Source: Verrucomicrobiota bacterium (GTDB taxonomy: Bacteria; Verrucomicrobiota; Verrucomicrobiia; CAIQCK01). Taken from it: DNA of 64,000 bases. How positions within the stretch are numbered: the stretch's first letter is position 1; each line of letters starts with the position of its first letter. The stretch lies in assembly GCA_026397915.1 (NCBI GenBank), contig JAPLTX010000056.1:1-64000 (forward strand), in the 5' to 3' direction. Shown one piece after another: positions 1 to 47,131 of the stretch. The notes under the pieces were generated by a model that worked only from the letters and a program-made list of their open reading frames with translations, was not told the origin of the DNA and did not search any database. Position numbers and translations under genes: made by a program.

Positions 1-148
1 TCACCTCGCATCCATCGCTTCCCTCGCTCCGTGCGGTGTCTCATGCTCCCAGATTCTCAGCCATCTCTACAATCCCGTCGTCGAAATCATTCACACCAAA
101 GTCTTCTGTGCCCCAGCCCCTTTAATCAGCGGTTCCCTAACGCGCCAG

Positions 149-751
149 ATGGCAGCGGAGTCGCTCGACAGAGCCATTCAGTCGTTCCGTGAGCGAGTTG
201 GCATTCTACCTGAGCGGAAGTTTGAACGCCGAGCAGAAGAAGTTGAGCTTGCGTGCCTAAATGCTGCATCGTCAGTTATGGCTCAGCACGCCTACTTTCG
301 CAGGCCATACCACCTCGTTGATGTCCTTCGGCAGATGAGCGATCAAGTTTTGGGCCATCGTGACGAAGTGGTCAAAGTGGATCGCAAACTGAATGACGTT
401 TTAACCGCCGCCGGAGTCGGTGAGGGATTGGTCAGTCCCCGAGAAGCAATACCGGGATTGGCAACAGTCGCGATTACTTCCGCACACATCCTCGGTATCT
501 GGGATGCTGGAGAAACACGTGCCCAAGCAATTGAGTTTAGACAACTGGCTGAAGACCTCCTTTTCGGACGGGAATGGCATCTTTCAGAGTTGCGAGCGGC
601 GGCTAATGAGGCTCGACAGGAGGCAAACCGCACGGGTCTCGAATCACTTAGAACAGTCCGGATGTGGTTTGAGTGGGAACACTGGTTTGCGGCCAACAAT
701 TACCGGGTGCTCGACGGTATTCCCGAAGCAGACATAATGTTTTTAGACTGA
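149..751 (+). CDS. Hypothetical protein, possibly 5'-incomplete
   Basis: I do not recognise this 200-residue product. It is soluble and rich in Glu, Arg and Ala, with no signal peptide or membrane segment, and ends in an acidic stretch (DGIPEADIMFLD). No Shine-Dalgarno sequence precedes the ATG at 149. The same frame stays open back to position 2, so the true start may lie upstream or outside the window. Base composition is less GC-rich than the neighbouring genes, which hints at a different origin. A 158-bp gap separates it from the next gene. The reading frame is convincing; the function is unknown. Confidence 0.5.
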   Translation: MAAESLDRAIQSFRERVGILPERKFERRAEEVELACLNAASSVMAQHAYFRRPYHLVDVLRQMSDQVLGHRDEVVKVDRKLNDVLTAAGVGEGLVSPREAIPGLATVAITSAHILGIWDAGETRAQAIEFRQLAEDLLFGREWHLSELRAAANEARQEANRTGLESLRTVRMWFEWEHWFAANNYRVLDGIPEADIMFLD

Positions 752-909
752 AAGGACTAGCGTCTAGCGCAGAACACAGCAGAAAACGTAGCAAACTCTG
801 AAGCGTGAACTCCAACATTCGCGCATTCTTCGCTGACGCCGTCGTTGGACTTCAACCTTCAGGCTGTGTTGCGCTGGGCAAAGCCGCCGGAAAGTGATAG
901 GAGAAGCGC

Positions 910-1812
910 ATGAGCACGGCAATTTCCCGACGCGATCTCATCCGTGGCGCGGTCACTCTGTCCGCCGCCGCTACACTACCACGCGACGTCGTTGCCGCGT
1001 CTCCCCGACCGCGCAGGATGGCGGATGAGGGCTGGTGCTGGGACGGGCAAGCGATCAACGGGCAGTGGCAGTTATCCATCTTCGGCGCTGGCGAAGGCAC
1101 GAGGTGGTTCGGGTTGAAGCGGTGCTGCTTCATGTTCCATCCGAACACGACGCTGGCGATGGAGAAACTGCGGGACATGAAGGAGATCGTCTGCGAAATC
1201 TCGAAGTGGGAAGGCCAGAGGGTCGAGCATCCGCAATACAAGGGCCTCGGCGCGCCGATGCGGATGAATCACGACGGCCGGATCGAGCGTAAGTGCCGCG
1301 AGGCAGAGACCGTCAGCCAGTTGTCCCGCAAATATCCGAACGTGACCGGCGCGTTCGACGACGACCTCTACGGCAAGATCAAGGCCGAGCACATCACGCC
1401 CGACCAATACGCCGCGGTCCGTCGCGCGGTGAAGAGCGCGAACCCGAAGCTCAAGCATTGGGGCGTGGTCTATTCGCACGAGCTGAAGAAGGAGAACTGG
1501 GCAGGCTTCACTGACTTGCTGGATGTCGTCACGCTCTGGGTGTGGGCGTCGAAGGACCTCGTCAACCTCGACCGCTACGTCGAGCAATGCCGCGAAATCT
1601 TCCCCGGCAAACCGATCAACATCGGCTGTTATCTGCGCGACTACACATTGCTGGCGGGCGTGCCGATGGAGATGCTCAAGGTCCAATGGCAGTTCGTCTG
1701 CAAGGCTCTGCGCGATGGAACCATTCAGGGCTACTCGATCCTCGCCGGATGCCTGATAGATATGCACCCGGAGCAGGCGACGTGGGTGCGCGACTTCATC
1801 AGGGCGAATTGA
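910..1812 (+). CDS. Tat-exported protein of unknown function, TIM-barrel-like
   Basis: This 300-residue protein starts with a twin-arginine signal (SRRDLIRG followed by an Ala-rich hydrophobic stretch), so it is probably exported folded through Tat. The mature part has alternating strand/helix character with a GAFDDDLYGK segment and a C-terminal part resembling (beta/alpha)8 hydrolase-like proteins, but I cannot name a family. A GGAG at 900-903 supports the ATG at 910. The product is broadly similar in style to the 11720-13066 gene (both carry an acidic D-D motif near the middle), possibly a related glycan-processing fold. It appears monocistronic. Confidence 0.6.
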   Translation: MSTAISRRDLIRGAVTLSAAATLPRDVVAASPRPRRMADEGWCWDGQAINGQWQLSIFGAGEGTRWFGLKRCCFMFHPNTTLAMEKLRDMKEIVCEISKWEGQRVEHPQYKGLGAPMRMNHDGRIERKCREAETVSQLSRKYPNVTGAFDDDLYGKIKAEHITPDQYAAVRRAVKSANPKLKHWGVVYSHELKKENWAGFTDLLDVVTLWVWASKDLVNLDRYVEQCREIFPGKPINIGCYLRDYTLLAGVPMEMLKVQWQFVCKALRDGTIQGYSILAGCLIDMHPEQATWVRDFIRAN

Positions 1813-1859
1813 GTGCGTGGGTTATTTTTGGCCCCGTCGCGGATCTCAGTGAATCCGAG

Positions 1860-1888
1860 TTGCGTTTTGACGCCGTATTCTCTATTTT
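1860..1888 (+). promoter_or_regulatory. Candidate sigma70 promoter for the 1907 operon
   Basis: TTGCGT (1860-1865) and TATTTT (1883-1888) are separated by 17 bp, in a notably AT-richer patch. The predicted start of transcription is near 1895, just before the ATG at 1907. Confidence 0.45.
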
Positions 1889-1906
1889 AGCCGGTAGTTT
1901 AGGAAC

Positions 1907-2110
1907 ATGAATACGGTGCCATCAGAATATAAAATGCCACGTCGGCAATTGTTGACGGAGAGTATTCTTCGATTGACACCGACTGAACGTATGGCCCGGT
2001 TCGCTGAACTGCAGCGTCAGGCATCCCAGCTATTGGAGACTTCGCCGGATGGGTTGCGCCATTTTCAGCAGCGAAACCTGCAGGAACGGCGAATTCATGG
2101 TCAGTTCTAG
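1907..2110 (+). CDS. Small protein paired with a nucleotidyltransferase
   Basis: This 67-residue product has a segment (LRLTPTERMARFAELQ) typical of the short helical proteins encoded immediately upstream of AbiEii/MNT-like nucleotidyltransferases. It overlaps the next gene by 14 bp, which implies translational coupling. Such pairs are often toxin-antitoxin-like, with the small partner acting on or beside the transferase, but no activity can be assigned from sequence alone. A similar arrangement occurs at 62128-62344 on the other strand. A small unrelated leader peptide is the main alternative. Confidence 0.5.
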   Translation: MNTVPSEYKMPRRQLLTESILRLTPTERMARFAELQRQASQLLETSPDGLRHFQQRNLQERRIHGQF

Positions 2111-2570
2111 AGAATCGCTTGACGCGCTTGCACAGGGGAGGGTGCCATTTGTGGTTATTGGTGGTCATGCGGTCAACTTTCATGGTTATCTGCGCACCAC
2201 CGAAGATGCTGACGTGATTTTCCTCCGAACCCACGAATCCGAAACTAGCCTCTTGAAGGTGCTTCAGTCCATTCACGCTTGTTGGATTAGCGATGAGCGC
2301 GATCCACAAACCAAGCTTGAGCGTCTGGTCCCTGTATCGGAAGCTTACATTCTTTCTCAGCATGTGATGCTGTTACACACCGACTTCGGTTTTTTGGACA
2401 TCTACGACTTCGTCCCAGGTTTTCCTGACACGCCCGTCCCGGAGATTCTCGCCGCGAGCATTCCTTGGGGTGAACTCCGTTTCGTCTCACTCCACTGGTT
2501 GCGAAAAATGAAGGAAAAGGCTGCCCGCCACAAAGACTTGGACGATTTGGAAAACCTGCCGCGTGCCTGA
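2097..2570 (+). CDS. Nucleotidyltransferase-fold protein (AbiEii/DUF6036-like)
   Basis: The protein has the minimal nucleotidyltransferase signature GGHAVNFHG followed by RTTEDADVIF (G-G-x-A-V...T-x-D-x-D). The two Asp residues would bind the metal that positions NTP. I choose the ATG at 2097 (157 residues) because it begins just before the core and overlaps the end of the small upstream gene by 14 bp; longer versions start inside that gene. Members of this broad group include AbiEii-like toxins and MNT antitoxins, so a toxin-antitoxin-like role is inferred from context only. The next gene begins 22 bp downstream. Confidence 0.65.
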   Translation: MVSSRESLDALAQGRVPFVVIGGHAVNFHGYLRTTEDADVIFLRTHESETSLLKVLQSIHACWISDERDPQTKLERLVPVSEAYILSQHVMLLHTDFGFLDIYDFVPGFPDTPVPEILAASIPWGELRFVSLHWLRKMKEKAARHKDLDDLENLPRA

Positions 2571-2592
2571 AAGTCAACGGAGACGGTTCGAC

Positions 2593-4320
2593 ATGAGAAC
2601 GCGAATGTTTGCAGTCGGGGCAACGACTGTTCTGTGGTGCGTATTGCACAACGCGCTGTTCGCCGCGAATCCTCCTTACGAAGTTGAATCGCGCGCCGAA
2701 GTCAAAATCCCGATGCGCGACGGAGTTGATCTCTCGGCGAACGTCTTCCTGCCGAAAGCGGAGGGGAAGTTCCCCGTCATTCTCGCCCGCACGCCTTACG
2801 AGAAAGGCAAACCGGAAGGTGGTATGGGTCGCGTGTGGGCGTTGCGCGGCTTCGTTTTCATCAGCCAAGATTGCCGGGGCAAAGGCACATCGGGCGGTCA
2901 GTGGGTTCCCTTCGTGCATGACCGCCCGGACGGCGAAGACACGCACCGCTGGATTCTCAAGCAGCCGTGGTGCAACGGCAAAATCGGCACCACCGGCGGC
3001 TCTTATCTCGGCTACACGCAATGGATCTCCGCGCCCGGCGCGGGTGATTTCTTGAAGGCGATGTTTACCATCGTGCCGCTGGTGGATGTCTATGACGACC
3101 TCGCCTACGCGGGCGGCGCTTATCAGCTTCAGGTGATGATGGGCTGGGGTTCGGGAACGGCGGGTAGCATAGCCACGCGCACTTGGAAACGAGAAGACTG
3201 GCTACGTGCGTTACCGCTCCGCACGTGGGACACAGCGATCGGGCAGACGGTGCCCTACCTGCGCGAATGGGTCGCCCATCCGCGGTTCGACGACTACTGG
3301 AAACCGAGCAGCCTCCGCGGCCGGCACAAAGACATCACGACGCCGATCTATACCGCCTGCGGCTGGTATGACCTCTACGCGAAGAGCGTGTTTGACCACG
3401 TCACCGCCGTCCGCAAAGGCTCGCGCTCCAAAGAGGCGCGCAAACACCAGCATCTCTTGGTTGGCCCGTGGCCTCACGGCATCAATCGCGACCGCAAAGT
3501 CGGCGACGTGGATTTCGGCGAGGGCTCGTTGATCAAATTGGATGAGATTCAAACTAAGTGGTTCGACCACTGGCTGAAAGGCGAGAAGACAGATGTCGAA
3601 GCGTGGCCGCCGTTCAGGATTTTCGTGATGGGCCGCAACCAGTGGCGCGACGAACAGGAGTGGCCGCTGCACCGGGCGCGCTATGTGCCGCACTACTTCC
3701 ACAGCGGCGGCTCAGCCAACTCGCTCAAAGGCGACGGCCGGCTGAGCGCGACGAAACCCGGCCCTGAGCCCGCCGACAAGTTCGTCTATGACCCAGACGA
3801 TCCCGTGCCCACCGCTGGCGGCTGCAATCTTGGCGGCGTTGCCGGCCCACGCAATCAAACGGCGGTCGAGCAACGGGACGACGTCCTCGTTTTCACGAGC
3901 GAGCCGCTGAAGAACGAACTGGAGACGACCGGGCCGATCAAGGTCGTCCTCTACGCCGCCAGCACCGCGAAGGATACGGACTGGACGGGCAAGCTCGTTG
4001 ACGTATGGCCCGACGGCCGCGCCATCAACCTCTGCGACGGCATCCTGCGCGCCCGCTGCCGCGAATCCGCCGACAAGCCGAAGCTGATCGAACCGGGAAA
4101 GGTTCATCGCTACGAGATTGACCTCTGGGTCACCAGCAACGTCTTCCTGCCGGGTCACAGGGTTCGCGTCGAGATTTCCAGCAGCAACTTCCCCCGCTTC
4201 GACCGCAACCCGAACACCGGCCATCCGTTCGGCGCTGACGCGGAGCGCCAGAAAGCGACGCAAACCATCTATCATGACGCCGCGCACCCGTCGCACATTC
4301 TCTTGCCAGTCATCCCGTGA
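2593..4320 (+). CDS. CocE/NonD family hydrolase (peptidase S15-like), exported
   Basis: A secreted alpha/beta hydrolase of the X-Pro dipeptidyl-peptidase/cocaine esterase family, expected to cleave ester or amide bonds of small acyl compounds. The start at 2593 gives a clean signal peptide ending near FAANPP. The nucleophile elbow GGSYLG places Ser137. A conserved GWYD and a later VGPWPHG supply the likely acid and His of the triad. The C-terminal third (YEIDLWVTSNVFLPGHRVR) is the jelly-roll domain typical of the family. The length of 575 residues is usual. The gene begins 22 bp after the nucleotidyltransferase but looks functionally tied to the exported hydrolases that follow. Confidence 0.85.
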   Translation: MRTRMFAVGATTVLWCVLHNALFAANPPYEVESRAEVKIPMRDGVDLSANVFLPKAEGKFPVILARTPYEKGKPEGGMGRVWALRGFVFISQDCRGKGTSGGQWVPFVHDRPDGEDTHRWILKQPWCNGKIGTTGGSYLGYTQWISAPGAGDFLKAMFTIVPLVDVYDDLAYAGGAYQLQVMMGWGSGTAGSIATRTWKREDWLRALPLRTWDTAIGQTVPYLREWVAHPRFDDYWKPSSLRGRHKDITTPIYTACGWYDLYAKSVFDHVTAVRKGSRSKEARKHQHLLVGPWPHGINRDRKVGDVDFGEGSLIKLDEIQTKWFDHWLKGEKTDVEAWPPFRIFVMGRNQWRDEQEWPLHRARYVPHYFHSGGSANSLKGDGRLSATKPGPEPADKFVYDPDDPVPTAGGCNLGGVAGPRNQTAVEQRDDVLVFTSEPLKNELETTGPIKVVLYAASTAKDTDWTGKLVDVWPDGRAINLCDGILRARCRESADKPKLIEPGKVHRYEIDLWVTSNVFLPGHRVRVEISSSNFPRFDRNPNTGHPFGADAERQKATQTIYHDAAHPSHILLPVIP

Positions 4321-4482
4321 CGACGTGCGTCCGCAGCCTCGCCACCGCGGGGGAACCGTTTATGACCGCCAAGTAGAACAACCTCGTCCAAGTCATTGTC
4401 TGCACCCGGCAACACGATAGCGCGCGTCTTTCTCGCTCGACATCGGTTGCGTAAGCGTTTATCGGGAACAGTGAGTTTAGTC

Positions 4483-6747
4483 ATGCGCGTCAAACGATGG
4501 ACATTCGACGGGACCGCAACGGTCATTCTCTTGCTGCTGTTCCTGGCGACAAACGCTTGGTCTGACGGCGGCCTCGCAGAGAAGATCGGTTGCGACAAGA
4601 TTCTTTTCGTCAAACGGTTCACCTACAACTCCAACCACTACTACACCGAGTTCATCAACAGCACGTGGCAGCCCGGCGGCAACCTCTGCATTCTCGACCT
4701 CAAGACGGGCCGCGTGCGCGAGTTAGTGCCGCAACTCAAGGGCGGCGTCTTCGAGCGGTTCGATCTGTCGTTCGACGCCCGACGGGTGGTGTTTGCTTGG
4801 AAGAAAGCGCCGCTGGAGGGCTATCGCATCTATGAGGTGAGGATTGACGGCACTGGTTTGCGGCAGTTGACGTTTCCGCCGCCCGACGAAGCGGAGCTGG
4901 TCCGCAAATACAAACTCACTAACCTCTATCATCACGGCACCGACGATATGCAGCCGTGTTATCTGCCCGACGGCGGCATCGCGTTCATTTCCACGCGCTG
5001 CCAATATGGGATTCTTTGCGACGGGTCGGACAACTTTACCACGACTGTGCTCTACCGGATGGACGCCAACGGCAAGAACCTGCGCCGGCTCACCAACAGC
5101 TCTGTCAGTGAGGCTTCGCCCGTCATGATGCCCGACGGTCGCATCCTCTACACGCGCTGGGAGTATTTCGACAAGGGTGCCGTCAGTGTGAAATGCCTCT
5201 GGGCCATGCGCCCCGACGGCACCGCCTCGGCGGAAATTTTCGGCAACGACATTGCGTTGCCGCCGACGCTGCTCTACGGGCGGCCAATCCCCGGCGTCGC
5301 CAACCGCTACGTCGTGCTCGGCGCGCCGCATTATCCGCAGAACGGCGTTGGCACGGTCATCCGGCTCGACGTGGACAAGGACATCCGCACGCGCGAGCCG
5401 ATGACCTACATGACGCCCTTCGTGGACATCCGCAACGAGGGCGGTTTCGTGTTTCGCCAGCCCGATGGTTCGTGGCGCGAGGACCGCGAGGGACGCGGCC
5501 CGCTCTTCAAAGACCCGTATCCGCTTTCCGAGAAAAGCTTCCTCGTTGCGCACAAACCCGACGGCCCGGTGTGGAACGACGCAAAAGCCTACAGCCTCTG
5601 CCTGCTCGACGATCGCGGCGAAGCGCGGGAGTTCTACCGCGATCCGGGAATCTCCTGCTGGCTGCCGTATCCGTTGAAGCCGCGCCGCGTGCCGCCGGTC
5701 CTCAACTCCAGCGTCAATCGCGAACTGGCCGACCGCAACCAAGCCATCTGCGTCGTGGCGGATGTTTATCATGGTCTGGAAAACGTCCCGCGCGGCACGA
5801 TCAAGCACATCCGCATCCTGGAACAAATCCCGCGTCCTTGGGGAGCGCGACGGCCACTCAACGACGACGACTACGACCAGCAGCACGCCTGCATCAGCAA
5901 GGACACCCACCTTGCGTTGAAAGTGCAGCACGGCATCGTGCCCGTCGAGGACGACGGCTCGGCTTGCTTCATCGTGTCTGCCGTCGCGAACATCTCCCTG
6001 CAAGTGCTCGACGCGAACTATCTGGCCGTCCAAACCGAGCGCACCTACGTCAACTACATGCCGGGCGAGCGCCGCGGTTGCGTCGGTTGCCACGAGATGC
6101 CGCGCGATGGCGGCAGCGTCGCCGCGTCCCGGAACCCCAAGGCCCTCTTGCGCCCGCCGTCGCTGCCGGGGCCGCAGCCAGGCGAAGCGACCGCCCGCCG
6201 TGTGCTGCATTATCCAAGCGATGTCCAGCCGACGTGGGACAGACTCTGCGTCGGCTGTCACACCGGCAGCAAAGCGCCCACCGGACTTGACCTGACCGGT
6301 GCGCCGACGAAGTTCTTCAGCGTGTCTTATGAAAATCTCGTTCCCGAACGCCGCAAGAAACCACTGCGCGACCGCGGCCTGCTCGGCGTGGTCATCGGTG
6401 AGAACCACCCCAAGACCGGCAACGTCGAGTATCTGCCGTCGTGGTCGCTCGGCTCGCACACCAGCGTGCTGGTCGCCATGCTCAGCAATGGCAAAGTAAA
6501 ACTCCACGAACCATCCCAAGCCGCGCGCGCGGAGAAACTGGCCGGCCTACACAAAGAAGTTGTCGAGAAACTCAAGCCGGAGGAATTCCTGCGCATCGCC
6601 AACTGGGTGGACACCAACTGCCAGTTCTACGGCAGTTACTGGGGTCACCGAAACCTGCGCTACAAGGACGAACCGGACTTCCGTCCGGTGCCGTCGTTCG
6701 TCATTGCCCGCAGCCTGATTCCGCCAAGGCCGGAGGATTGGAAATGA
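4483..6747 (+). CDS. HzsA-related diheme beta-propeller protein, exported
   Basis: An exported protein of 754 residues if translation starts at 4483, where a signal sequence (ILLLLFLATNAWS) follows two basic residues; the longer frame from 4396 is less likely. The first two thirds contain TolB/PD40-like propeller blades (for example RMDANGKNLRRLTNSS). The C-terminal part has two c-type heme sites, CVGCH at 533-537 and CVGCH at 589-593. This layout matches proteins annotated as related to the alpha subunit of hydrazine synthase (HZS_alpha family), which are common in non-anammox Planctomycetes and Verrucomicrobia and have no established function there. A redox or electron-transfer role at the cell surface is an inference. 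Confidence 0.75.
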   Translation: MRVKRWTFDGTATVILLLLFLATNAWSDGGLAEKIGCDKILFVKRFTYNSNHYYTEFINSTWQPGGNLCILDLKTGRVRELVPQLKGGVFERFDLSFDARRVVFAWKKAPLEGYRIYEVRIDGTGLRQLTFPPPDEAELVRKYKLTNLYHHGTDDMQPCYLPDGGIAFISTRCQYGILCDGSDNFTTTVLYRMDANGKNLRRLTNSSVSEASPVMMPDGRILYTRWEYFDKGAVSVKCLWAMRPDGTASAEIFGNDIALPPTLLYGRPIPGVANRYVVLGAPHYPQNGVGTVIRLDVDKDIRTREPMTYMTPFVDIRNEGGFVFRQPDGSWREDREGRGPLFKDPYPLSEKSFLVAHKPDGPVWNDAKAYSLCLLDDRGEAREFYRDPGISCWLPYPLKPRRVPPVLNSSVNRELADRNQAICVVADVYHGLENVPRGTIKHIRILEQIPRPWGARRPLNDDDYDQQHACISKDTHLALKVQHGIVPVEDDGSACFIVSAVANISLQVLDANYLAVQTERTYVNYMPGERRGCVGCHEMPRDGGSVAASRNPKALLRPPSLPGPQPGEATARRVLHYPSDVQPTWDRLCVGCHTGSKAPTGLDLTGAPTKFFSVSYENLVPERRKKPLRDRGLLGVVIGENHPKTGNVEYLPSWSLGSHTSVLVAMLSNGKVKLHEPSQAARAEKLAGLHKEVVEKLKPEEFLRIANWVDTNCQFYGSYWGHRNLRYKDEPDFRPVPSFVIARSLIPPRPEDWK

Positions 6748-22966: not shown

Positions 22967-25717
22967 TCAATACGCTTGCGAAGCGGCAGCGAGTTTTCCA
23001 CGCGGTGCCTGCTTCGCCGGTGCGATTCTGACGTTGTCCACGTAGAACACCGTCTTCTCCGTCGCCCCGCTGATGAAACCAAACCACTGGAGCCGCTGGA
23101 AGTCTTTGTGGCCGAATGGCAGGCTGGCGAAACTCTTCGCCTCGCCGCCGCGCGGCTTCACCGTCAGGTCGTAGCTGCCGGTGGCACCGCGCCCCACGGC
23201 GAACTTTGCCTCGATGTGAACCCACTGGCCCAACGGCAGCGTCATCAGCGTCTGCTTGCCCGCCATCAACTCTCCGGCGGCCGACACGCGCAGGCTCGGC
23301 CCAACCCGATACGGCGAGCTGGCGTCGCGGCACTCGATCGTCGGCAGCGCGCCTTTCTCCACGCGCAGGTCGAACGACACCAGCAGCGTGCCGCGGCTGA
23401 AGTTGAACTTGCTGTAGTAGAGATGAGGCTGCCACGTCAGCGCCAAGCCGGCTGCGTCCACGAATTTCACACTGCGCCGGCCTGACGTGGCCGTCTCGTC
23501 GGTGACGGCAAGTTGGCCGGGAGCGTCCGCGCCGGAGAGCGTGCATTTCTCCGGTCGGCTGCCCACCGGCGTCTTCTCAAAGTCATCCTCGATGGAGGTG
23601 ACCTCTTTCCAAACTGCAAACTCTGTCGGCGGACGTTTGATCTTCTTTGGCAGCGCCACCCAGCTCTTGTCGCCGACGAGGCCGACGGTGCTGGTGTCAA
23701 TCGGCTTGAATCCGAGCTTGAGCGCGGGCGAGTCGGGCCGCAGCCGGAAGTCGCGCTTCGCGACGCTGACGAACTTCGGGTCGGCGATGATCGAACTCTT
23801 GTCCTGCGCCGTGTCCTGCCGCCACTCGTCGAGCATCGCGCCGGCGAATGTCGGCTCGCCGCCTGCGCGCCAATAGACGTTGCGATCCATCTGGTAGTTT
23901 TTATTGCCCCAGTTGCCGCCGAGCAGCGGGCCTTTATCCTGATAAACGATGTTGCCCTCGAACTTGAACGAGCAGTGCTCCTCCTGCCGCGAACGGATGA
24001 TCTGCGGCTCGGCGGCGAGCGCGAAGATGTTGTTCCGCACGATGTTCTCCTTGCCGTAGTGCTGATGGAAACCGCCCGTCTTGATCAGATAGACGACGTT
24101 GTTCTCCAACACGATGTCCGTGCTTCCCTCGTCGGTGTAAAGGCCCCAGCCGCCATAGCTGTAGCTGAGCACGTCGTGGATGACGTTGTTTCGCAGCACC
24201 GAGCCGGGCTGCGTGCCGAGCGTGTAGATGCCGCCCATGTCGCTCAACACGCCCTTGCCGATGTGATGGATGTGATTGAACTCCGCGACGTTCCCGCGAC
24301 CTTCGTGCGGCCCGTAACCCCACGTCCAGCCGATGGACATGCCGGAGTAGTAGAAGTCGCAGATTTCGTTGTGCGAGACGAGGTTGTCCGCGCTCTGGCC
24401 GATCCAGACGCCGATGCCCGCGTGGAACACATGCCCGCCGTCGTGGATGAAACAGTTGCGGACGACGTTGCCGCGGGTGCGCACCGGCTCGGCGGTCGGC
24501 AGGTCGCCGCCGCGCGCGTATTCGCCGAGCCGCACGCCGCCGGCGCCGAGGTCGTGGATGTGGCACTGCTCGATGCGGTTGCCGCGGCAGCCGCGTGCGA
24601 AGTTGATGCCATATTGGCCGACGTGCGCAATTTCACAGCGTTCGAGGACGCAATCGAGCGCGCCGTTGGCGGAGATCGCCGCGTCGAGGAATGTCACCGC
24701 CGCCTGACCATCAGCTGGCTTGTCGCGCGGAATCTCCCAGTCTCCGTGCTGGAACGACAGCCCGACGAGCCGCACGCCACGGACGAACTTGCCCTTGTCT
24801 GGATCGCCCGCGAACCGCACCAGCGTCATCAACGCCGGCGCGACCACCTCGGCCTTCCGCATGTCCTCGCCCGGCCTCGGCCAGTAGCTCAGCACGCCCG
24901 TCTTGCGATCGAGATGCCACTCGCCCGGCGAGTCGAGCGCTTCGCGGAAGTTCTCGACGTAGTAACGCTGCTCCTTCTCCCAATAACTCATCGGCCAACC
25001 GCTCGGCTGGACAAACCGCACCGTGTGCGCCTGCTCATCGAGCGCAGCGATGTGATGCCACGACGCCGTCCACGCATGGAACGCGACGATGTTCACGTCG
25101 TCGAGGTTGCCCCAACGCTTCAGGTCGCCCTCCTTGAACTTGAACCCCGCCTTCATCTCCGGCGTCCACTTCTTCCGGTCGCGCACGAGCGGAATCAGCG
25201 GTCCATCGGTGCGTAGGTAGCCGTCGTTCGGCGTCCGCGCCCGCGTCGCGCGCCGGCCATTGACGAAGAGCTGATGGAAATACCACTTCCCCGCCGCCAC
25301 GTCCGCGATCTGCGCCGTCCAAAGTTTCCCCTCGCCTTTCTTCCAGCCCGTGATTACGCGCCCGCCGCTGAACACCGGCCGCTCGCCTGGCGCGGCGGCA
25401 TAAACCACATCCGAATCCTCCGGCCCGAACGTGAGTGTCTCCATCAACCGATACGTGCCACCGCGGACAACAACTGACTTCTGACCTCTGACCTCTGACC
25501 TCTGGCCTCTGGTCGCGTCTCTCGCCCGCGCAATCGTCGCAAACGGTCCGTCGCTCTTCTCCTTGTTGGGCGCAGCAAGCTTGCCGCTCCACTGGTCGTT
25601 GCCGTCCGTGGCGACGTAGAAGCTCGCCGCAGGCAACGCTGGCGCGGCCGATGCCGCCACAGTTCCTATGATGAGAGCGCAAACGAAGCCGGCTGATTTG
25701 TGAAGAATGGTTTTCAT
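22967..25717 (-). CDS. Exported right-handed parallel beta-helix protein
   Basis: A 916-residue secreted protein. The signal peptide (KTILHKSAGFVCALIIGTVAASA) fixes the start at 25717. Residues 35-110 carry FYVATDGNDQWSGKLAAPN, the typical lead-in to pectate-lyase-like beta-helices. The central region has many short strand repeats (NRIEQCHIHDLG, NVVRNCFIHDGG, NLVSHNEICDFYYSG). The last about 250 residues form a LamG/CBM-like sandwich (SVKFVDAAGLALTW). It probably binds or cleaves acidic polysaccharide. A heptanucleotide tandem repeat is embedded near residues 69-82 (see 25474-25512). It is divergent from the giant kinase gene. Confidence 0.85.
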   Translation of the reverse strand: MKTILHKSAGFVCALIIGTVAASAAPALPAASFYVATDGNDQWSGKLAAPNKEKSDGPFATIARARDATRGQRSEVRGQKSVVVRGGTYRLMETLTFGPEDSDVVYAAAPGERPVFSGGRVITGWKKGEGKLWTAQIADVAAGKWYFHQLFVNGRRATRARTPNDGYLRTDGPLIPLVRDRKKWTPEMKAGFKFKEGDLKRWGNLDDVNIVAFHAWTASWHHIAALDEQAHTVRFVQPSGWPMSYWEKEQRYYVENFREALDSPGEWHLDRKTGVLSYWPRPGEDMRKAEVVAPALMTLVRFAGDPDKGKFVRGVRLVGLSFQHGDWEIPRDKPADGQAAVTFLDAAISANGALDCVLERCEIAHVGQYGINFARGCRGNRIEQCHIHDLGAGGVRLGEYARGGDLPTAEPVRTRGNVVRNCFIHDGGHVFHAGIGVWIGQSADNLVSHNEICDFYYSGMSIGWTWGYGPHEGRGNVAEFNHIHHIGKGVLSDMGGIYTLGTQPGSVLRNNVIHDVLSYSYGGWGLYTDEGSTDIVLENNVVYLIKTGGFHQHYGKENIVRNNIFALAAEPQIIRSRQEEHCSFKFEGNIVYQDKGPLLGGNWGNKNYQMDRNVYWRAGGEPTFAGAMLDEWRQDTAQDKSSIIADPKFVSVAKRDFRLRPDSPALKLGFKPIDTSTVGLVGDKSWVALPKKIKRPPTEFAVWKEVTSIEDDFEKTPVGSRPEKCTLSGADAPGQLAVTDETATSGRRSVKFVDAAGLALTWQPHLYYSKFNFSRGTLLVSFDLRVEKGALPTIECRDASSPYRVGPSLRVSAAGELMAGKQTLMTLPLGQWVHIEAKFAVGRGATGSYDLTVKPRGGEAKSFASLPFGHKDFQRLQWFGFISGATEKTVFYVDNVRIAPAKQAPRGKLAAASQAY
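25474..25512. repeat. Heptanucleotide tandem repeat (CTGACCT)n inside the beta-helix gene
   Basis: About five and a half units (CTGACTT, CTGACCT x3, CTGGCCT, then a partial CTGGTC) run in tandem. The stretch is translated in frame as part of the beta-helix protein (RGQRSEVRGQKS) in a loop before the conserved VVRGGTY. It resembles the short tandemly repeated repetitive (STRR) sequences known from cyanobacteria. Confidence 0.8.
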
Positions 25718-25873: not shown

Positions 25874-28800
25874 ATGACAGATTTGGTCGGCCAGACGCTC
25901 GGTGGCTACGCGGTTTTGGAACTGCTGGGCAAAGGTGGCATGGGGGCCGTGTTCAAGGCCCGTCAGCCGGTGCTCGACCGTATCGTCGCGCTCAAAGTCA
26001 TCACCTCACGCGCCGCCGAAGATCCAGCTTACATTGCCCGCTTCCGTCAGGAAGCCAAGGCAGCCGCGCAACTCAACCATCCCAACATCGTCCAGGTCCA
26101 CGCCGCTGGCGAAGACCGGGGCATCCACTTCATTGTCGAGGAATTCGTCGAGGGCGAGAACCTGCAAGACCGCCTCTCGCGCGAAGGCCACATGGACCCG
26201 CAGGAGGCGCTGGCGGTTTGCGTGTTCGTGGCCGACGGGCTGAAGTATGCCTGGGACGAGGCCCGGATCATCCACCGCGACATCAAGCCGGCGAATATCT
26301 TCCTCTCGAACAAAGGCGCGGTGAAAGTGGGCGACCTTGGTCTGGCCAAGAGCGTCGGGGCCGAGGGCGCTTCCGCGCTGACGCAATCGGGCATGACCGT
26401 CGGCACGCCCTACTATTGCAGCCCGGAACAGACCCGCGCCGACAAAGAAATAGATTTCCGTTCCGACATCTACAGCCTTGGCTGCACGCTCTACCACATG
26501 CTCAGCGGCAAAAAGCCTTACGAAGGCGCGCCGAACGAATCGCCCATGTCGGTGATGATCAAGCAGGCGACCGCCCCGCCGCCGGCCATCTTGCAGGTGT
26601 TGCCGGATTGTCCGTCGCAGGTGGTGATGTTGCTGAACAAGATGCTGGCGAAACATCCCAGCGCCCGGCACGCGAGCTACGACGTGTTGATCGCCGACCT
26701 GCGGCGGCTGCATGACCTCTTGGGCCAGCCGCAAGCCAACGCGCCGGTCAGCTCGGCGCTGCACGCCGGCACCGTCGCGCAGAAGCGGAAGCCGGTGGTG
26801 ATCTACGGTGGAATCGCTGCGGCTGTCGCGACGGTGGCTGTGATCGGCCTGCTGGTCTGGTCCCCGTGGAAGGAACGGGGAGCGTCGGAGCGTGAAGCGT
26901 CGGGCGTGGCACCCGTCGTGGAACCGAAGCCGGGTTTGGAGTCCCGCCTTCAGGCGGAATCCGCGCCGCCACAACCGGCTAAAGCCGGGACTCCAAACCC
27001 CGAAGCGCCGACTCCGAAACCACCGGAGAAAAAGCAGGAAGCCATTGCTGAAGCTACAAAGGCGGCCAAAATGCCCGCGCTCCCAGCCACCGACTCCGCA
27101 ATCCAAACTCCAAAATCGAAAATCCAAAATCCCGTTGACTCCGCCTTCCTCGCCGCCGTCGCCGCGCTCGATCCCGAAGACCAGGTCTCGCGCGTCATGG
27201 ACAAGCTGCTGCTGCTCAACCCCAAGTTCGACGGCAAGCAGAGTCACAAGATCGAGAACGGCAAAGTCACCGAGCTGACCTTCTCCGCCGCCGAAGTCAG
27301 CGACATCTCGCCACTGAAGGCGCTGCCGCATTTGCAGAGCCTCACCATCGGCGGCACGGCGCAGAAACGGACGCTGAGCGACCTCTCGCCGTTGAAAGGA
27401 CTCAAACTCACCAAGCTCGCCATCCACTCCACCGCCGTCAGCGACTTGACGCCGCTCGCGGGGATGCCGCTGGCCTCGCTGCAAATCAGCAACACGCGGG
27501 TGAGCGATCTCTTGCCGCTGCGGGGCGCGCCGTTGACGTGGCTCAGTTGCGTGGATGCGCCTGTGAAAGATCTCGCCCCGCTGGCCGGCGCGCCGCTGGC
27601 CACGCTCTGGTGCGGCGGCTCGCAGGTGACGGACTTCTCGCCGCTTAAGGCCGTGCCGCTGAAGGAACTCTCCTGCGACTTCCAGCCCGAGCGCGACAAG
27701 GTGGCGTTGTTCGCCATCAAGACCTTGGAGAGCATCAACGGCAAACCAGCGGCGGATTTCTGGAAGGAAGTCGGCGCGCCCGAAGACCCGTGGTTCAAGC
27801 AAGTCGCCGCCATGCCCGCCGAGCAGCAACTCGCCGCCGTGATGGCGAAGCTGAAGGAGTTGAATCCCGGTTTCGACGGCAAGGAAACGCACAAGATCGA
27901 ACGGACTGTGACAGGGGCCACCGCCGATTCCGCACTCCGCACTCCGCAATCCGCATTTTCCATCACCGAACTCTCCTTCTCCACCGTCGCCGTGACGAAC
28001 ATCGTCCCTGTCCGCGCGCTCACGGCCCTGAAGAAGCTGACGCTGCTGCCGTGGGCCGCAGGTGGAGCGCGACCGCCGGGCGCGCTTTCCGATCTCTCTC
28101 CATTGCAGGGCCTGCCTCTGACCTTCCTCGCCTGCGGCAACACCCGGGTCGCCGACCTCACTCCGCTCAAAGGAATGCCGCTGACCATCCTCAGCGTGGA
28201 CAACACGCCCGTCAGCGATCTCTCGCCGCTCGCGGGAATGCCGCTGACGGTCCTCTGGTGCAACAGCACCAAGGTGACCGACCTCTCGCCGCTGGCCGGC
28301 GCGCCGCTGACGGAACTGCGTTGCGACGTGAAACCGGAGCACGCCCCGCTGCTCGCCTCCATCCCCACGTTGCGGAAGATCAACGACATCGCCCCCGCCG
28401 CGCTCTGGATGCGGATGCACATCAAGCCGCCCGTGCCGTCCGTTGTAGGCCGGGTGCCCTCACCCGGCGCAACGTCCGGCGCAACGACAACGACGACGCC
28501 CGGTCAGGGGACCGGGCCTACAATGAAACCCGGCACCGCCGCCCAAACCGGCCAGCCGTTGATGACCTCCATCGGCATGGAGTTGCTCTACATCTCGCCC
28601 GGCGAGTTCCTCCTCGGCAGCACGCCGGAGGAACGCGCGTGGGCAGTGGCCAATGGCGTGAAACTGGAGGGCGTGAAGTGCGAAGGCGAGCAACCGCGCA
28701 AGGCGACGATCAAGCATGGCTTTTGGCTGGGCAAGACCGAGGTGACGGTGGGCCAATGGAAGCTGTTCGTGGCGGCGACGGGCTATGTGACCGACGGCGA

Positions 28801-30439
28801 GAAGAAGGGCGAGTCTTATGCGGCGCAAGGGCCGGGCAAGCCGATGGGGTTGGTGAAAGGCGCGAATTGGAAAGACCCGAACTTTGGCTTTAGGCCGAAA
28901 GACAATCATCCGGTATGTTGCATCAGTTGGAACGATGCGGTGGCATTTTGCGAGTGGCTCAACGAGCGGGAGGCGAAGGCAGGTCGCCTACCGCCGGGCT
29001 TCAAGGTGCGGCTGCCGACGGAGGCGGAGTGGGAGTATGCGTGCCGTGCGGGCAAGCAGACGAAGTTCTGGTGGGGCGAGACTAAGGAAGGCAGCGAGAA
29101 TCGGCTGAACAGGGCGGGGACGGTGGACGGTTTCGAGTTTGTCGCGCCGGTGGATCACTACGGCGCGCGCGGTCGGAACAAGTTTGGATTGGCGGACATG
29201 CTGGGCAACGTGGCGGAGTGGTGCTTGGATGCGTTCGATCCAACTGGAGCGCACGAGCAATGCAACGCTGCAACCAACTCGTCTGGGAACGTGGTGCGCG
29301 GTAGCGCGTTCAACGGCATCCTCGGCTACGTTCGGTGTGCCCTCCGCCAGCCTTGCATGGGATCGTTTAGCCACATCGGGTTTCGCGTAGCGATTGGGAT
29401 GGAGCAAGGTGACGCGAGGCCAACGCCTTCACCTGCGCAGACCACGCCTGCCACTGTAGCGCAGCCGCCTGTTGCGACACCAACAACGACCACGCCGCCT
29501 GTCGTGACGCCCACGCCTCCACGCACTGCCGCTCTTACGCTCCCACGCTCCACGTCCGCCGCCGCCGCCCAAACCGGCCAGCCGTTGATGACCTCCATTG
29601 GCATGGAGTTGCTCTACATCCCGCCCGGCGAGTTCTTCCTCGGCAGCACGCCGGAGGAACGGGCGTGGGCACTGGCCAACGGTGGCACTGCCGCCTACGT
29701 CAAGTGGGAAGGCGACCAGCCGCGGAAGGCGGCGATCAAGCAAGGTTTCTGGCTCGGCAGAACCGAGGTGACGGTGGGCCAGTGGAAGCAGTTCGTGGCC
29801 GCTACCGGCTACGTCACTGACGGCGAGAAGAAGGGCGAGTCTTATGCGCCGCAAGGGTCGGATAAGCCGTTTGTTTTTGTGAAAGGGGCAAGTTGGAAAG
29901 ATCCAAATTTTGGCTTCAAGCTGAAGGACAATCATCCCGCTTGCTGCATCAGTTGGAACGATGCGGTGGCGTTCTGCGAGTGGCTGAACGAGCGGGAAGC
30001 GAAGGCTGGACGGCTGCCGCCCGGGTTCAAGGTGCGGCTGCCGACGGAAGCGGAGTGGGAGTATGCCTGCCGGGCCGGCAAACAGACGAAGTTCTGGTGG
30101 GGCGACACGAAGGAAGGCGGCGAAGGACGGCTGAATTGGAACGTCAAAGGCGACGGCTTCGAGTTTATCTCGCCGGTGGACCATTACGGGGCGCGAGGTC
30201 GAAACAAGTTTGGACTGGCGGACATGTTGGGCAACGTGCAGGAGTGGTGTTTGGACGAGACCGATCTGGCGGGTGCGCATGAAGAACCTTACAAAGGCAA
30301 TTCGTTTGTGCGCGTGGTGCGGCGCGGCGCGTTCACCACCAACCCCGGTGACTCGCGCTGCGCCTCTCGCGATTCCCACACTCCGTCCGGCTCGTTTAGT
30401 AACCTCGGGTTCCGGGTGGCGGTGGGGATGGAGCGTTGA
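25874..30439 (+). CDS. Membrane Ser/Thr kinase with two LRR-like modules and two FGE-fold domains
   Basis: A 1521-residue receptor-like kinase. Residues 1-290 are a complete PknB-type kinase: GKGGMG loop, Lys41 in ALKV, HRDIKPAN (His134-Asp136), DLG in place of DFG, and CSPEQ. A membrane helix spans about 308-329. The outer part has a Pro/Ala linker, an LRR-like module (about 420-610, blades of 23 residues such as DLTPLAGMPLASL), a second copy (about 640-842), then two FGE-sulfatase-fold domains (892-1178 and 1236-1521). Both FGE domains retain fold motifs (LPTEAEWEYACRAG, GLADMLGNV-EWCLD, LGFRVA) but lack the catalytic Cys pair, so they likely bind ligand. Repeat DNA sits at the domain junctions. 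The start at 25874 has GGAGG upstream. Confidence 0.85.
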   Translation: MTDLVGQTLGGYAVLELLGKGGMGAVFKARQPVLDRIVALKVITSRAAEDPAYIARFRQEAKAAAQLNHPNIVQVHAAGEDRGIHFIVEEFVEGENLQDRLSREGHMDPQEALAVCVFVADGLKYAWDEARIIHRDIKPANIFLSNKGAVKVGDLGLAKSVGAEGASALTQSGMTVGTPYYCSPEQTRADKEIDFRSDIYSLGCTLYHMLSGKKPYEGAPNESPMSVMIKQATAPPPAILQVLPDCPSQVVMLLNKMLAKHPSARHASYDVLIADLRRLHDLLGQPQANAPVSSALHAGTVAQKRKPVVIYGGIAAAVATVAVIGLLVWSPWKERGASEREASGVAPVVEPKPGLESRLQAESAPPQPAKAGTPNPEAPTPKPPEKKQEAIAEATKAAKMPALPATDSAIQTPKSKIQNPVDSAFLAAVAALDPEDQVSRVMDKLLLLNPKFDGKQSHKIENGKVTELTFSAAEVSDISPLKALPHLQSLTIGGTAQKRTLSDLSPLKGLKLTKLAIHSTAVSDLTPLAGMPLASLQISNTRVSDLLPLRGAPLTWLSCVDAPVKDLAPLAGAPLATLWCGGSQVTDFSPLKAVPLKELSCDFQPERDKVALFAIKTLESINGKPAADFWKEVGAPEDPWFKQVAAMPAEQQLAAVMAKLKELNPGFDGKETHKIERTVTGATADSALRTPQSAFSITELSFSTVAVTNIVPVRALTALKKLTLLPWAAGGARPPGALSDLSPLQGLPLTFLACGNTRVADLTPLKGMPLTILSVDNTPVSDLSPLAGMPLTVLWCNSTKVTDLSPLAGAPLTELRCDVKPEHAPLLASIPTLRKINDIAPAALWMRMHIKPPVPSVVGRVPSPGATSGATTTTTPGQGTGPTMKPGTAAQTGQPLMTSIGMELLYISPGEFLLGSTPEERAWAVANGVKLEGVKCEGEQPRKATIKHGFWLGKTEVTVGQWKLFVAATGYVTDGEKKGESYAAQGPGKPMGLVKGANWKDPNFGFRPKDNHPVCCISWNDAVAFCEWLNEREAKAGRLPPGFKVRLPTEAEWEYACRAGKQTKFWWGETKEGSENRLNRAGTVDGFEFVAPVDHYGARGRNKFGLADMLGNVAEWCLDAFDPTGAHEQCNAATNSSGNVVRGSAFNGILGYVRCALRQPCMGSFSHIGFRVAIGMEQGDARPTPSPAQTTPATVAQPPVATPTTTTPPVVTPTPPRTAALTLPRSTSAAAAQTGQPLMTSIGMELLYIPPGEFFLGSTPEERAWALANGGTAAYVKWEGDQPRKAAIKQGFWLGRTEVTVGQWKQFVAATGYVTDGEKKGESYAPQGSDKPFVFVKGASWKDPNFGFKLKDNHPACCISWNDAVAFCEWLNEREAKAGRLPPGFKVRLPTEAEWEYACRAGKQTKFWWGDTKEGGEGRLNWNVKGDGFEFISPVDHYGARGRNKFGLADMLGNVQEWCLDETDLAGAHEEPYKGNSFVRVVRRGAFTTNPGDSRCASRDSHTPSGSFSNLGFRVAVGMER
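26934..26998. repeat. Inverted REP-like pair inside the kinase gene (linker)
   Basis: Two divergent hairpins, GGAGTCCCGCCTTCAGGCGG and, on the other strand, GGAGTCCCGGCTTTAGCCGG, are bounded by GTTTGGAG and CTCCAAAC. They encode part of the linker after the membrane helix (residues 354-375). The frame is kept open. Confidence 0.75.
27100..27134. repeat. Heptanucleotide repeat (AATCCAA)n just before LRR module 1
   Basis: The units AATCCAA, ACTCCAA, AATCGAA and AATCCAA, plus a degenerate last unit, are translated in frame as a short polar linker (QTPKSKIQNP). Confidence 0.75.
27927..27961. repeat. Heptanucleotide repeat (ACTCCGC)n inside LRR module 2
   Basis: The units ATTCCGC, ACTCCGC x2, AATCCGC and one degenerate unit are translated as SALRTPQSAF. 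They interrupt a module that is otherwise parallel to LRR module 1, where the corresponding point (after HKIE) is much shorter. Confidence 0.75.
28445..28521. repeat. Inverted pair of GTAG-headed REPs between LRR module 2 and FGE domain 1
   Basis: GTAG-GCCGGGTG-CCCT-CACCCGGC (28445-28468) is mirrored by a minus-strand copy, GTAG-GCCCGGTC-CCCT-GACCGGGC (28521-28498). The pair forms a BIME-like unit translated as the linker around residues 858-883. Confidence 0.85.
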
Positions 30440-43682: not shown

Positions 43683-44234
43683 ATGTATCACCTCATCATC
43701 GAGAATGGCACCCGCGAAGGCGAGTGCATCCGGCCCAAAGGCGTGGAACTGACCATCGGCCGCGAACCGGGCAATGTCTTGCGGCTGGTGGACGACGGCG
43801 TTTCCGGCCACCATTGCGTTATACGGCTCACGCGGCGAGGCATCACCGTGTGCGACTGCAATTCCACCAACGGCGTCTATGTCAACGGCAAGCCCATTCA
43901 TGAAGAAACCCGACTCCCCAGCGGCTGCCTCATTGAAGTGGGCGCGGTGGCAATGCGGTTCGAGTTTCTCCACAACGTGGACAGCCACAAGCTGCGCACC
44001 ACCGTGATCTTCTGGATCGCGGCCGCCATAGTGGCGCTAACGTTCTCAATCCAACTGGCCGGCATCGGCATTGCGTTCTGGACGCGGCACCACCGGTTCA
44101 CACCGGAAGAAACCGCGGCGGTCCTGAAGTGGTTTCCCTTGCCGCCCGATCTGCCCGGCGCGCTGCTGCCGGCCGCCGCGAAACCCAACCCAGCCGCGCC
44201 TACCGCGCCGGCGTCAACCCAACTGAGGTTCTGA
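43683..44234 (+). CDS. FHA-domain membrane protein
   Basis: A 183-residue protein with a complete forkhead-associated domain (GREPGNVLRLVDDGVSGHHCVIR, then NSTNGVYVNGKPI), which binds phosphothreonine peptides, followed by one membrane helix (VIFWIAAAIVALTFSIQLAGIGI) and a short Ala/Pro tail. It should face the cytoplasm and read phosphorylation, perhaps by the kinase at 25874-30439. Its TGA overlaps the ATG of the next gene, so both are made together and may form one complex. The start may also be at 43671. Confidence 0.88.
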   Translation: MYHLIIENGTREGECIRPKGVELTIGREPGNVLRLVDDGVSGHHCVIRLTRRGITVCDCNSTNGVYVNGKPIHEETRLPSGCLIEVGAVAMRFEFLHNVDSHKLRTTVIFWIAAAIVALTFSIQLAGIGIAFWTRHHRFTPEETAAVLKWFPLPPDLPGALLPAAAKPNPAAPTAPASTQLRF

Positions 44235-47131
44235 TGGCTACCGTCCTTCTCATCGTGGATCACGACCGCTCGGTCGTGGACGCCCTCACCACACAACTGG
44301 CTGCGCCGCCGTTTGTCGGCCGGTTCCACGTCTGCGGCGCAACAACGCTCGAAGAAGCTCTCGGCGCTTTCGAAGGCCAACCTGTGGACGTGCTCGTCAG
44401 CGACCTTAACGTCGCCGGCACGCAACTCGCTGAATTCGCCCGCTCACGCTTTCCCGATCTCAAAGTCGTTTTCACCGCCGACGCGCCGTCGGCCGAAATC
44501 AAAAGCCAGGTGCGCGCCGCCAGCGGTCTTGGTCTGGTCGTGAAGCCCCTCCGCGCAGAGAACGTCATCGCATTACTTTCCGTCGCGCCCGAACCGGCCG
44601 CGCCGCCGCCACCGCTGGAACCGGCGCCACTGCAAGAGACGGCAACTCCAGCCGTAGCCGCGCCACCGCCGCCGCCGCCGCCCGCCACGCCGCGCGTCGT
44701 CCCGACCACGCCAAAAGTTGCGACCCCACTACCGGCTCCTGCCGTCGTGGCGAAAGCGCCCGCTGTCACAGCCGCGCCAAAGGTCGCCGCAACGCCGCTG
44801 CCGCAACCACGCGTGCCAACCGTCGCCAAAGTTTCCGCGCCGCCTGCGGTCGCGGCCGCGCCGCAAGCAACGCCGCCACAGTCGCGACCAACTGTCGTGG
44901 CCAAAGTGCCCACTGTCATGTCCGCGCCGAAGGTTGCCACAGCGCCGCCACCACCACAGCCGCGCGCGCCCACCGTCGTCGCCAAACTTCCCGCGCCGCC
45001 GCCCGCGCCCAAAGCAGTGCCGCCGCAGCCGGGTCCCACGGTCGTGGCCAAAGTGCCCACTGTCACGTCCGCGCCGAAAGTCGCCGCAACGCCGCCTTCA
45101 CCACCACCGCAGCCGCGCGTGCCAACCGTCGTCACCAAACCTCCCGCGCCACCCGCCGTCGCAACCGCGCCGAAACAGCCGACGGTGAAACCGCAAGTTT
45201 CAGCGGCCCCACTGCCGCAAACCGCCACAACAACCGGCCCGCGCGTTGTGGCAAGAGTGCCAACCGTCGCGGCCACACCGGTGGTGAAGCCGCAGGTGGC
45301 CGTGCCGCAGGTCGCTGCGCCAACAGCGCTTCCGCCCGAACCGCCGCCAGTCGAAGCACCACCCGCCGTCGAACCAGTGCCGCCGGCGAGCGTGCCAACG
45401 CCCACGCCGCCGGAACTGCGCGCCGTGCCAGCTCAGCACGAAGAACCGCCACCGCCGGTTCCACAGGAGTTCATTCCGCCGCCTCCGCCGCCGCGCCGCG
45501 CAAGCAACCCGATGATTGGCGCGGTGCTCGGCCCTTACGCCATCAAGCGCGTGTTGGGCCACGGCAACTGGGGCAGCGTCTTCGAGGCAGTGCAGGAGCA
45601 GGTAAACCGCACTGTTGCAATCAAGGTGCTGGAGCCGGAGTTGCACGAAGATCCGGCAAAGGTCGCGCAGTTCTCATCGCTGGCAAGCCGGATGGCCAAC
45701 CGGCGTCACAACAATCTCGTGGCGGTTTACGAAGCGGGCGAGTTTGGCGGTGTGCATTACTACGCGCGCGAGTTCATCGAAGGACGCACGTTGCAGAAAA
45801 TCGTCGAGTCGCCACAGAAACTCAGCCCGGCACACACCTTGCGAGTGTTGATGGGCGTGGCGCGAGCGCTGTTGTATCTGTTGCACCACCACATCGCGAT
45901 CGGCCCGGTGCCGGGGAAAAACATTCTGGTGGACACCATCAACGGCGAGCCACACGTCTGCGGTTTTTCATTCATGGACGGCACCAGCGGCGAACTGGGC
46001 AGCTCGGCTGCCACGGAGATGCCACAACTGGCGCAGATGTTGTGGAGCGCTCTGGATCCGGCCGCGCCGCAATCGCAGCAGGTCTATGGGCTGCTGAGGC
46101 GGTTGCTGGCCCCGGATCATCCGTTCCCGTCGCTGGAGCATCTGCTCTCCGAGGCGGAGGCTTTGGAGCGCACATTTCACAAACCGGTGGTCAAGAGGGC
46201 GAAGTCAGCTAGCGCGCCGAGACCCGCCATCAAGCCAATCATGCCGGGGCAAACACCGCTGGGCCAGCGTCTTCAAAAGAAGCACTATGTCATGGGCGGC
46301 GCTGTCGCAGGCGCGGTGGTGTTGGCGGTAGCCGGGTGGTTTGTGTTCCAGCAGTTCACTAAGCTGCCGCCGGCGGACGTGGAGACGTTTATCCAGGTGC
46401 CGGCGGGCGAGTTCATCTACCAAAGCGGTGAGAAGAAGACGACGAAGGAGTTCTGGATCAGCAAATACGAAGTCACCATTGGCCAATACCGCAAGTTCTG
46501 GACGCGGGTGAAGGAGAAAGGCGACAAGAACTACGCGCACCCGAGGCAGCCGAAGAACGTTGACACCACGCATACACCGGTGAATTGGGATTGGATGCAG
46601 GCCGCTTGCGAGGCCGGCCAGCAGCTTGGCGACGGCCACCCCATTACGGACGACTACCCAATTTTTAACGTGACCTACTGGGACGCGTGGGCCTACGCGA
46701 AGTGGGCCGGCGGCCGGCTGCCAACCCAAGAGGAATGGGAGAAGGCCGCGCGCGGCACCGACGGGCGGCTCTATCCGTGGGGCAACAGCCTCGACGACCC
46801 CAAGCGCGCCAACACTGGCAAGGATTACGACGACATTAATCGCGGCCGGATTGATGGTTACCTCCAGTGGGCGCCGGTCCACGCGCATCCGGGCGACGCG
46901 AGTCCATTCGGGGTGCGCGACATGGCGGCCAACGTCTGCGAGTGGACTGACTCGTGGGTGCCAATGCTGAACAACCCAAAGGAGCAAGTGCCCATCATCC
47001 GCGGCGGTTCATGGGCCGACACCGAAGTGCGCGTTACGCAACGCCAGAGCAACGTGATGCCCCATCAAGGGCGCAACGATCTCGGCTTCCGCATCATCAA
47101 GGACACCGCGCCACCGGTGGTGGGAAAGTAA
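44234..47131 (+). CDS. Receiver-like, pseudokinase, membrane helix, FGE-fold protein
   Basis: A 965-residue multidomain protein. Residues 1-120 are a receiver-like domain with a phospho-acceptor-like Asp in VLVSDLN. A long Pro/Ala/Val linker follows (about 125-425), with a 49-residue repeat unit. The kinase-like domain (about 430-660) keeps the glycine loop (GHGNWGSVF) and VAIK, but its HRD is replaced by an IAIGPVPGKN segment and its DFG by GFS, so it should be a pseudokinase. A membrane helix (about 684-708) leads to an FGE-fold domain (716-962) lacking the catalytic Cys pair. It is coupled to the FHA gene by a 1-base TGATG overlap. Confidence 0.85.
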   Translation: MATVLLIVDHDRSVVDALTTQLAAPPFVGRFHVCGATTLEEALGAFEGQPVDVLVSDLNVAGTQLAEFARSRFPDLKVVFTADAPSAEIKSQVRAASGLGLVVKPLRAENVIALLSVAPEPAAPPPPLEPAPLQETATPAVAAPPPPPPPATPRVVPTTPKVATPLPAPAVVAKAPAVTAAPKVAATPLPQPRVPTVAKVSAPPAVAAAPQATPPQSRPTVVAKVPTVMSAPKVATAPPPPQPRAPTVVAKLPAPPPAPKAVPPQPGPTVVAKVPTVTSAPKVAATPPSPPPQPRVPTVVTKPPAPPAVATAPKQPTVKPQVSAAPLPQTATTTGPRVVARVPTVAATPVVKPQVAVPQVAAPTALPPEPPPVEAPPAVEPVPPASVPTPTPPELRAVPAQHEEPPPPVPQEFIPPPPPPRRASNPMIGAVLGPYAIKRVLGHGNWGSVFEAVQEQVNRTVAIKVLEPELHEDPAKVAQFSSLASRMANRRHNNLVAVYEAGEFGGVHYYAREFIEGRTLQKIVESPQKLSPAHTLRVLMGVARALLYLLHHHIAIGPVPGKNILVDTINGEPHVCGFSFMDGTSGELGSSAATEMPQLAQMLWSALDPAAPQSQQVYGLLRRLLAPDHPFPSLEHLLSEAEALERTFHKPVVKRAKSASAPRPAIKPIMPGQTPLGQRLQKKHYVMGGAVAGAVVLAVAGWFVFQQFTKLPPADVETFIQVPAGEFIYQSGEKKTTKEFWISKYEVTIGQYRKFWTRVKEKGDKNYAHPRQPKNVDTTHTPVNWDWMQAACEAGQQLGDGHPITDDYPIFNVTYWDAWAYAKWAGGRLPTQEEWEKAARGTDGRLYPWGNSLDDPKRANTGKDYDDINRGRIDGYLQWAPVHAHPGDASPFGVRDMAANVCEWTDSWVPMLNNPKEQVPIIRGGSWADTEVRVTQRQSNVMPHQGRNDLGFRIIKDTAPPVVGK

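Follow-up and report, generated by a model that had tools for sequence, protein, structure and literature searches.

DGR-type variable regions on FGE-fold domains of a predicted transmembrane receptor kinase in Verrucomicrobiota

We examined a stretch of 64,000 nucleotides from a Verrucomicrobiota bacterium (hereafter the window), which corresponds to contig C56 of an assembly of 62 contigs that is 94% complete (G000; one assembly per species). A putative receptor Ser/Thr kinase gene lies on the plus strand at 25874–30439, and encodes 1521 amino acids from the ATG at 25874, according to the ORF list, the start region and the Pfam matches. A ribosome-binding-like GGAGG was found just 5' of this ATG, while an alternative GTG start at 25700 gives a longer ORF but overlaps the divergent neighbour gene. 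Pfam searches placed a kinase domain and sensor-type domains in this one protein, all the features of which are on the plus strand. In particular, the protein kinase domain (25907–26677; PF00069, 1.3e-50) has the HRD and DLG motifs and the lysine of VALKV, and is followed by a predicted single transmembrane helix, VVIYGGIAAAVATVAVIGLLVW, at 26791–26869, a hydrophobic stretch read directly from the translation. Leucine-rich repeats (LRRs; PF12799; direct repeats D2, D3 and D6) come next in two blocks within 27256–28345 (about 27256–27720 and 27980–28345). Finally, two formylglycine-generating enzyme (FGE) type domains (FGE-sulfatase, PF03781) without catalytic cysteines were identified, FGE1 at 28538–29404 and the C-terminal FGE2 at 29564–30433. 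Each carries a variable region (VR) of the type made by diversity-generating retroelements (DGRs): that of FGE1 (29312–29377) is internal to the gene, whereas that of FGE2 is at 30335–30406. NNY codons make up 15 of the 16 variable codons of FGE2 and 12 of the 15 of FGE1, whose variable region is less pure and carries an indel. Given the predicted helix, the repeats and both FGE domains would be extracytoplasmic, and the simplest topology predicted from the sequence has the kinase inside and the LRR and FGE domains outside.

Palindromic repeats were also present in the linkers of the kinase gene (28443–28523 and 26932–27000), and they resemble REP-type elements that are tolerated within genes. 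One arm of the first palindrome had 14 close matches in the genome, compared with none for the reversed control, and relatives in three congeners. Short repeat units of the form CTCCGCA(A/C)TCCGCA, above chance in the window, were found in coding sequence before the repeat blocks (27928–27957 and 27094–27109). Another FGE protein of the window (44129–47131, plus strand) combines a weak receiver domain and a partial kinase with an FGE domain from a different subfamily.

The first-pass annotation of the window had described FGE1 and FGE2 as nearly identical up to EWCLD and divergent thereafter, and had called for a count of substitutions along the two copies. We found the divergence of the tails as described, but "nearly identical" is somewhat strong for bodies with 84% protein identity up to EWCLD, in which 15.6% of the residues differ. 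The proportion of differing residues reaches 54% between EWCLD and RGxxF and 59% between RGxxF and GFR (22 aligned codons plus a two-codon gap). The count was not uniform: codon positions 1 and 2 differ by 8.3% in the bodies and rise from this 0.083 to 0.35–0.41 in the tails, while third positions go from 0.32 (32%) to 0.42–0.45. The excess of tail divergence sits in positions 1 and 2 of about 16 tail codons, and this jump with nearly flat third positions indicates that the change was directed at the positions that alter amino acids. The stretch from EWCLD to RGxxF, part of the 50 residues singled out in the annotation, lies outside the template-homologous, DGR-type variable region, yet it is divergent, which has to be explained in another way.

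The C-x4-C pair of true FGEs is missing from both domains, as the annotation had also stated: RGSAF and RGAF are followed by NGILGYV and TTNPGDS, at the place of the two catalytic cysteines of human FGE. These positions fall in or beside variable columns and vary freely across the domain family; thus, catalysis is not preserved. The AlphaFold model of FGE2 (pLDDT 84, pTM 0.89; loops around 231–250 weak) showed the expected FGE fold, and matched FGEs, PvdO and the DGR protein TvpA (2y3c, probability 1.00). FGE1 and FGE2 are best read as binding domains of the C-type-lectin kind and not as enzymes.

The G000 assembly holds 36 FGE matches, and 19 domains belong to the subfamily of the window (18 variable domains and one frozen ortholog). 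In eight other G000 proteins, a kinase is joined to between one and three FGE domains, and two of those eight also have a cyclase domain. In the kinases L032 and L034, a guanylate/adenylate cyclase domain sits between the kinase and the FGE domains. Most variable domains (11 of 18) are internal to their genes, and domains are also found in tandem. The variable codons follow a family-wide layout, RGGSF xxx P G xx RCA x R xxxx P xx S xxxx GFR, in which the scaffold residues between the variable columns (RCA, R, S, GFR) are nearly invariant. The 16 tail columns, a set chosen after viewing the alignment, include 13 of the 20 columns with the highest variability in the domain family (hypergeometric p 5e-15).

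DGRs introduce mutations at adenines while copying a template, and their variable positions are almost only first and second codon positions (PMC10907252). Mutation at template adenines turns AAY template codons into NNY codons and leaves the third base inherited. Among the fourfold-degenerate codons of the 16 tail columns in the 18 domains, the third base was C or T in 78%, compared with 39% in the variable body columns. None of 100,000 random column sets reached 78%, in a column permutation that answers kinship only partly, since the domains are related and their counts non-independent. Amino-acid selection is blind to the third base in fourfold boxes. The tail residues fit random NNY (36 Ser observed and 35.6 expected; Lys/Gln/Glu/Met/Trp 7%), which beats the body composition by an ln-likelihood difference of 55 over the 16 columns, and first bases were near uniform in the 12 AAY columns (C 47, G 53, A 58, T 56). 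In the AAY columns, pairs of the variable class whose bodies diverge by less than 25% differ at 65% of positions 1 and 2 and 31% of third positions, compared with 13% and 35%, respectively, in the body. Similarly, the closest-matching kinases of G000 and G001 differ at 54% of positions 1 and 2 and 17% of third positions in those columns, with third positions below background (0.167 vs 0.335). The other FGE subfamilies of the same genome had no such C/T excess (64% vs 58%).

Two ortholog groups, represented in G000 on contigs C14 (L044) and C36 (L046), have tails nearly unchanged between species (amino-acid difference in the variable region at most 4% in the group measured) and apparently fixed functions; thus, the FGE fold is not hypervariable in general. 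At the same columns, these frozen groups had an adenine mismatch of 0.71–0.72, compared with 0.40–0.53 elsewhere, and 69% Y (25 of 36). They may be old frozen variable regions, or exposed loops may happen to lie at the adenine positions; since the frozen groups also lean to adenines, we do not take the adenine test as the main argument.

Three relevant loci were found in G005, which belongs to another genus of the same GTDB family. Its contig C50 (L100, positions 1–6209, minus strand) carries a complete-looking DGR with a reverse transcriptase (RT), a template and a 1233-aa kinase-NACHT-FGE target, in which the NACHT match is below the Pfam cut-off. The variable region of this target differs from its template at 23 of 25 adenines and at 2 of 86 other bases. 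Contig C301 holds a non-coding template with the VR layout of the window, RVLRGGSFNNNPANCRAANRNSNHPANSNGNNGFRVC. On contig C323 (L099, 6145–6822, minus strand), a DGR-type RT breaks off after about 160 residues; an IS200-like ORF lies downstream of it, and a 90-aa coiled-coil ORF lies between it and an FGE tail that is still close to the template. Compared with this near-template tail, which is not its own template, FGE2 of the window differs at 15 of 26 adenines and 10 of 85 other bases (p 6e-6), or at 14 of 25 and 3 of 49 when only codon positions 1 and 2 are counted; with FGE1 pooled with FGE2 the adenine test gave 27/46 vs 8/46. Taken alone, the adenine test is not clean, as the A positions of the template coincide with naturally exposed loops. 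A second RT fragment of G005, on C198 (L147), is 91% identical to that of C50, has its own AAY-rich template-like stretch and adjoins another kinase gene. The G005 RTs on C296 and C274 were set aside, as they look of the group II intron type by reading.

The annotation had proposed to search the genome for DGR machinery, and the outcome differed between genera: RT and template were both found in the sister genus (G005), but neither in the window's own genome, and no RT in three congeners. No PF00078 match was detected in G000 or in these congeners (93–96% completeness), and no RT fragment in G000 either. The G005 RT used as query down to E 1 gave only a meaningless 13-bit match in the same four genomes, and no match in the viral contigs. 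A template search of G000 by pattern and DNA similarity recovered only the tails of FGE genes and chance-level matches. Matches to PF05635 (Avd) were present in all seven genomes and correspond to generic four-helix proteins, unspecific and uninformative on Avd; one on C39, about 3 kb from a kinase-FGE gene, lies beside unrelated genes. A complete DGR cassette, with RT, template and accessory protein as well as the target, was thus not found in G000, and we class the regions as variable domains derived from a DGR and not as a DGR itself.

Taken together, the gene probably encodes a transmembrane receptor kinase with DGR-made variable regions on its FGE ectodomains, now orphaned or served in trans. 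The retroelement origin of the variable tails is well supported. The face that would hold the active site of an FGE would be a variable region written by a DGR: the AAY codons of a template RNA would have been copied by an adenine-mutagenic RT and then pasted into the tail, a process that randomises codon positions 1 and 2 but spares third bases and scaffold residues (RGGSF, RCA, R, P, S, GFR). Gene and domain duplication would then have spread the family, giving tandem arrays in which most variable regions are internal. Several proposals of the first-pass annotation can be judged on these grounds. DGR marks are there, as NNY codons, flat third positions and adenine-specific differences from the near-template of a related species. 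Its diversification after duplication is strongest in the tail that bears these marks, but was no single event between two copies, as it extends across the family, to 18 domains in this genome and dozens in relatives. Its receptor kinase agrees with dead FGE/C-type-lectin folds on a kinase with a predicted transmembrane helix, and its ligand sensing is one step further: binding of ligands by the FGE tails would regulate the kinase.

We considered four other explanations. A scenario in which only point mutation and ordinary positive selection shaped the binding face of a receptor family, with no retroelement, is unlikely. It would agree with the lack of RT and template in the own genome and of RT in the genus, and with the limitation of extreme variation to a plausible binding face. 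However, it leaves unexplained the fourfold C/T excess and the near-uniform random NNY composition, as well as positions 1 and 2 near saturation with third positions at or below background, and a DGR writes the same columns in the related species G005. Recombination could instead have swapped tails between paralogs, or gene conversion could have homogenised the bodies while old tail differences were kept, and a large paralog family in one genome, with tandem domains, makes exchange possible. This is quite improbable, because divergence at third positions is almost as high in the bodies as in the tail (0.32 vs about 0.44), so the bodies were not recently homogenised; we rejected homogenised bodies, given third positions nearly flat along both copies. 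Swapping, in turn, moves variants but creates no NNY-only diversity. The loss of the catalytic cysteines would fit relaxed constraint, in which the old active site of an inactive enzyme drifts, but this is highly improbable, as the scaffold residues interspersed there (RCA, R, S, GFR) have hardly changed, and under drift the third codon positions should vary no less than the other two. Neither point-mutation selection nor relaxed constraint jointly predicts the NNY excess, the even first bases and the flat third positions. Functional formylglycine-generating enzyme domains, to which the FGE fold and family score would point, are extremely improbable, since other residues stand at both cysteine positions in FGE1 and FGE2 and those columns vary freely in the family.

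For the DGR-derived tails, we tentatively suggest that a repertoire of receptors was written by a retroelement and then fixed; the species of the genus have no detectable RT, so on this reading the diversity of these tandem and internal domains passes from one generation to the next as in any family of receptor genes. Alternatively, the genus might still be undergoing diversification, with an RT that acts in trans from an element missed by the assemblies. Diversifying activity may be present today, and the RT may have been lost, may reside on an unassembled or mobile element, or may act only in part of the population. If the proposed origin is true, it suggests that DGR products can be recognised by codon pattern after the machinery is gone, which would uncover targets missed by RT-centred surveys; according to Roux et al., remote targets escape their survey method (PMC8144416). 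The family would also provide naturally occurring receptor kinases with hypervariable ectodomains, in which to ask what the sensors bind and how a DGR repertoire persists after loss of the RT.

The FGE enzymes (human 1y1e/2aft; bacterial 2q17, 6muj) share the fold with about 30% identity, but the window domains have no catalytic cysteines and their active-site loop is the variable region. TvpA of Treponema denticola (PDB 2y3c) has the FGE-type CLec fold of a DGR variable protein and is a match in both structure and sequence, with only 20% identity in the structural match and no kinase. Thiohalocapsa PB-PSB1 (Dore et al. 2024, PMC10907252) has kinase, NACHT and other targets with CLec domains, several variable regions per target, and loci with lost RT or template that are maybe served in trans; it keeps one complete DGR per class, whereas none was found in the window's genome. 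In cyanobacteria, kinase-CLec DGR targets with remote paralogs were described in 2020 (PMC7517822), and the authors propose ligand-controlled kinase activity. That system also combines a Hanks-type kinase with a CLec-fold domain bearing the variable region, in many paralogs scattered through one genome. Variable regions are usually C-terminal (PMC8144416), and the cyanobacterial one is near the 3' end, with RT and template in the genome; in the window family 11 of 18 domains are internal and no RT or template was found. The window family further differs by its kinases with LRRs or cyclase domains, its tandem domains and its verrucomicrobial lineage. It thus extends DGR-diversified kinases, known from cyanobacteria and Thiohalocapsa, to a family of Verrucomicrobiota with tandem and mostly internal variable domains.
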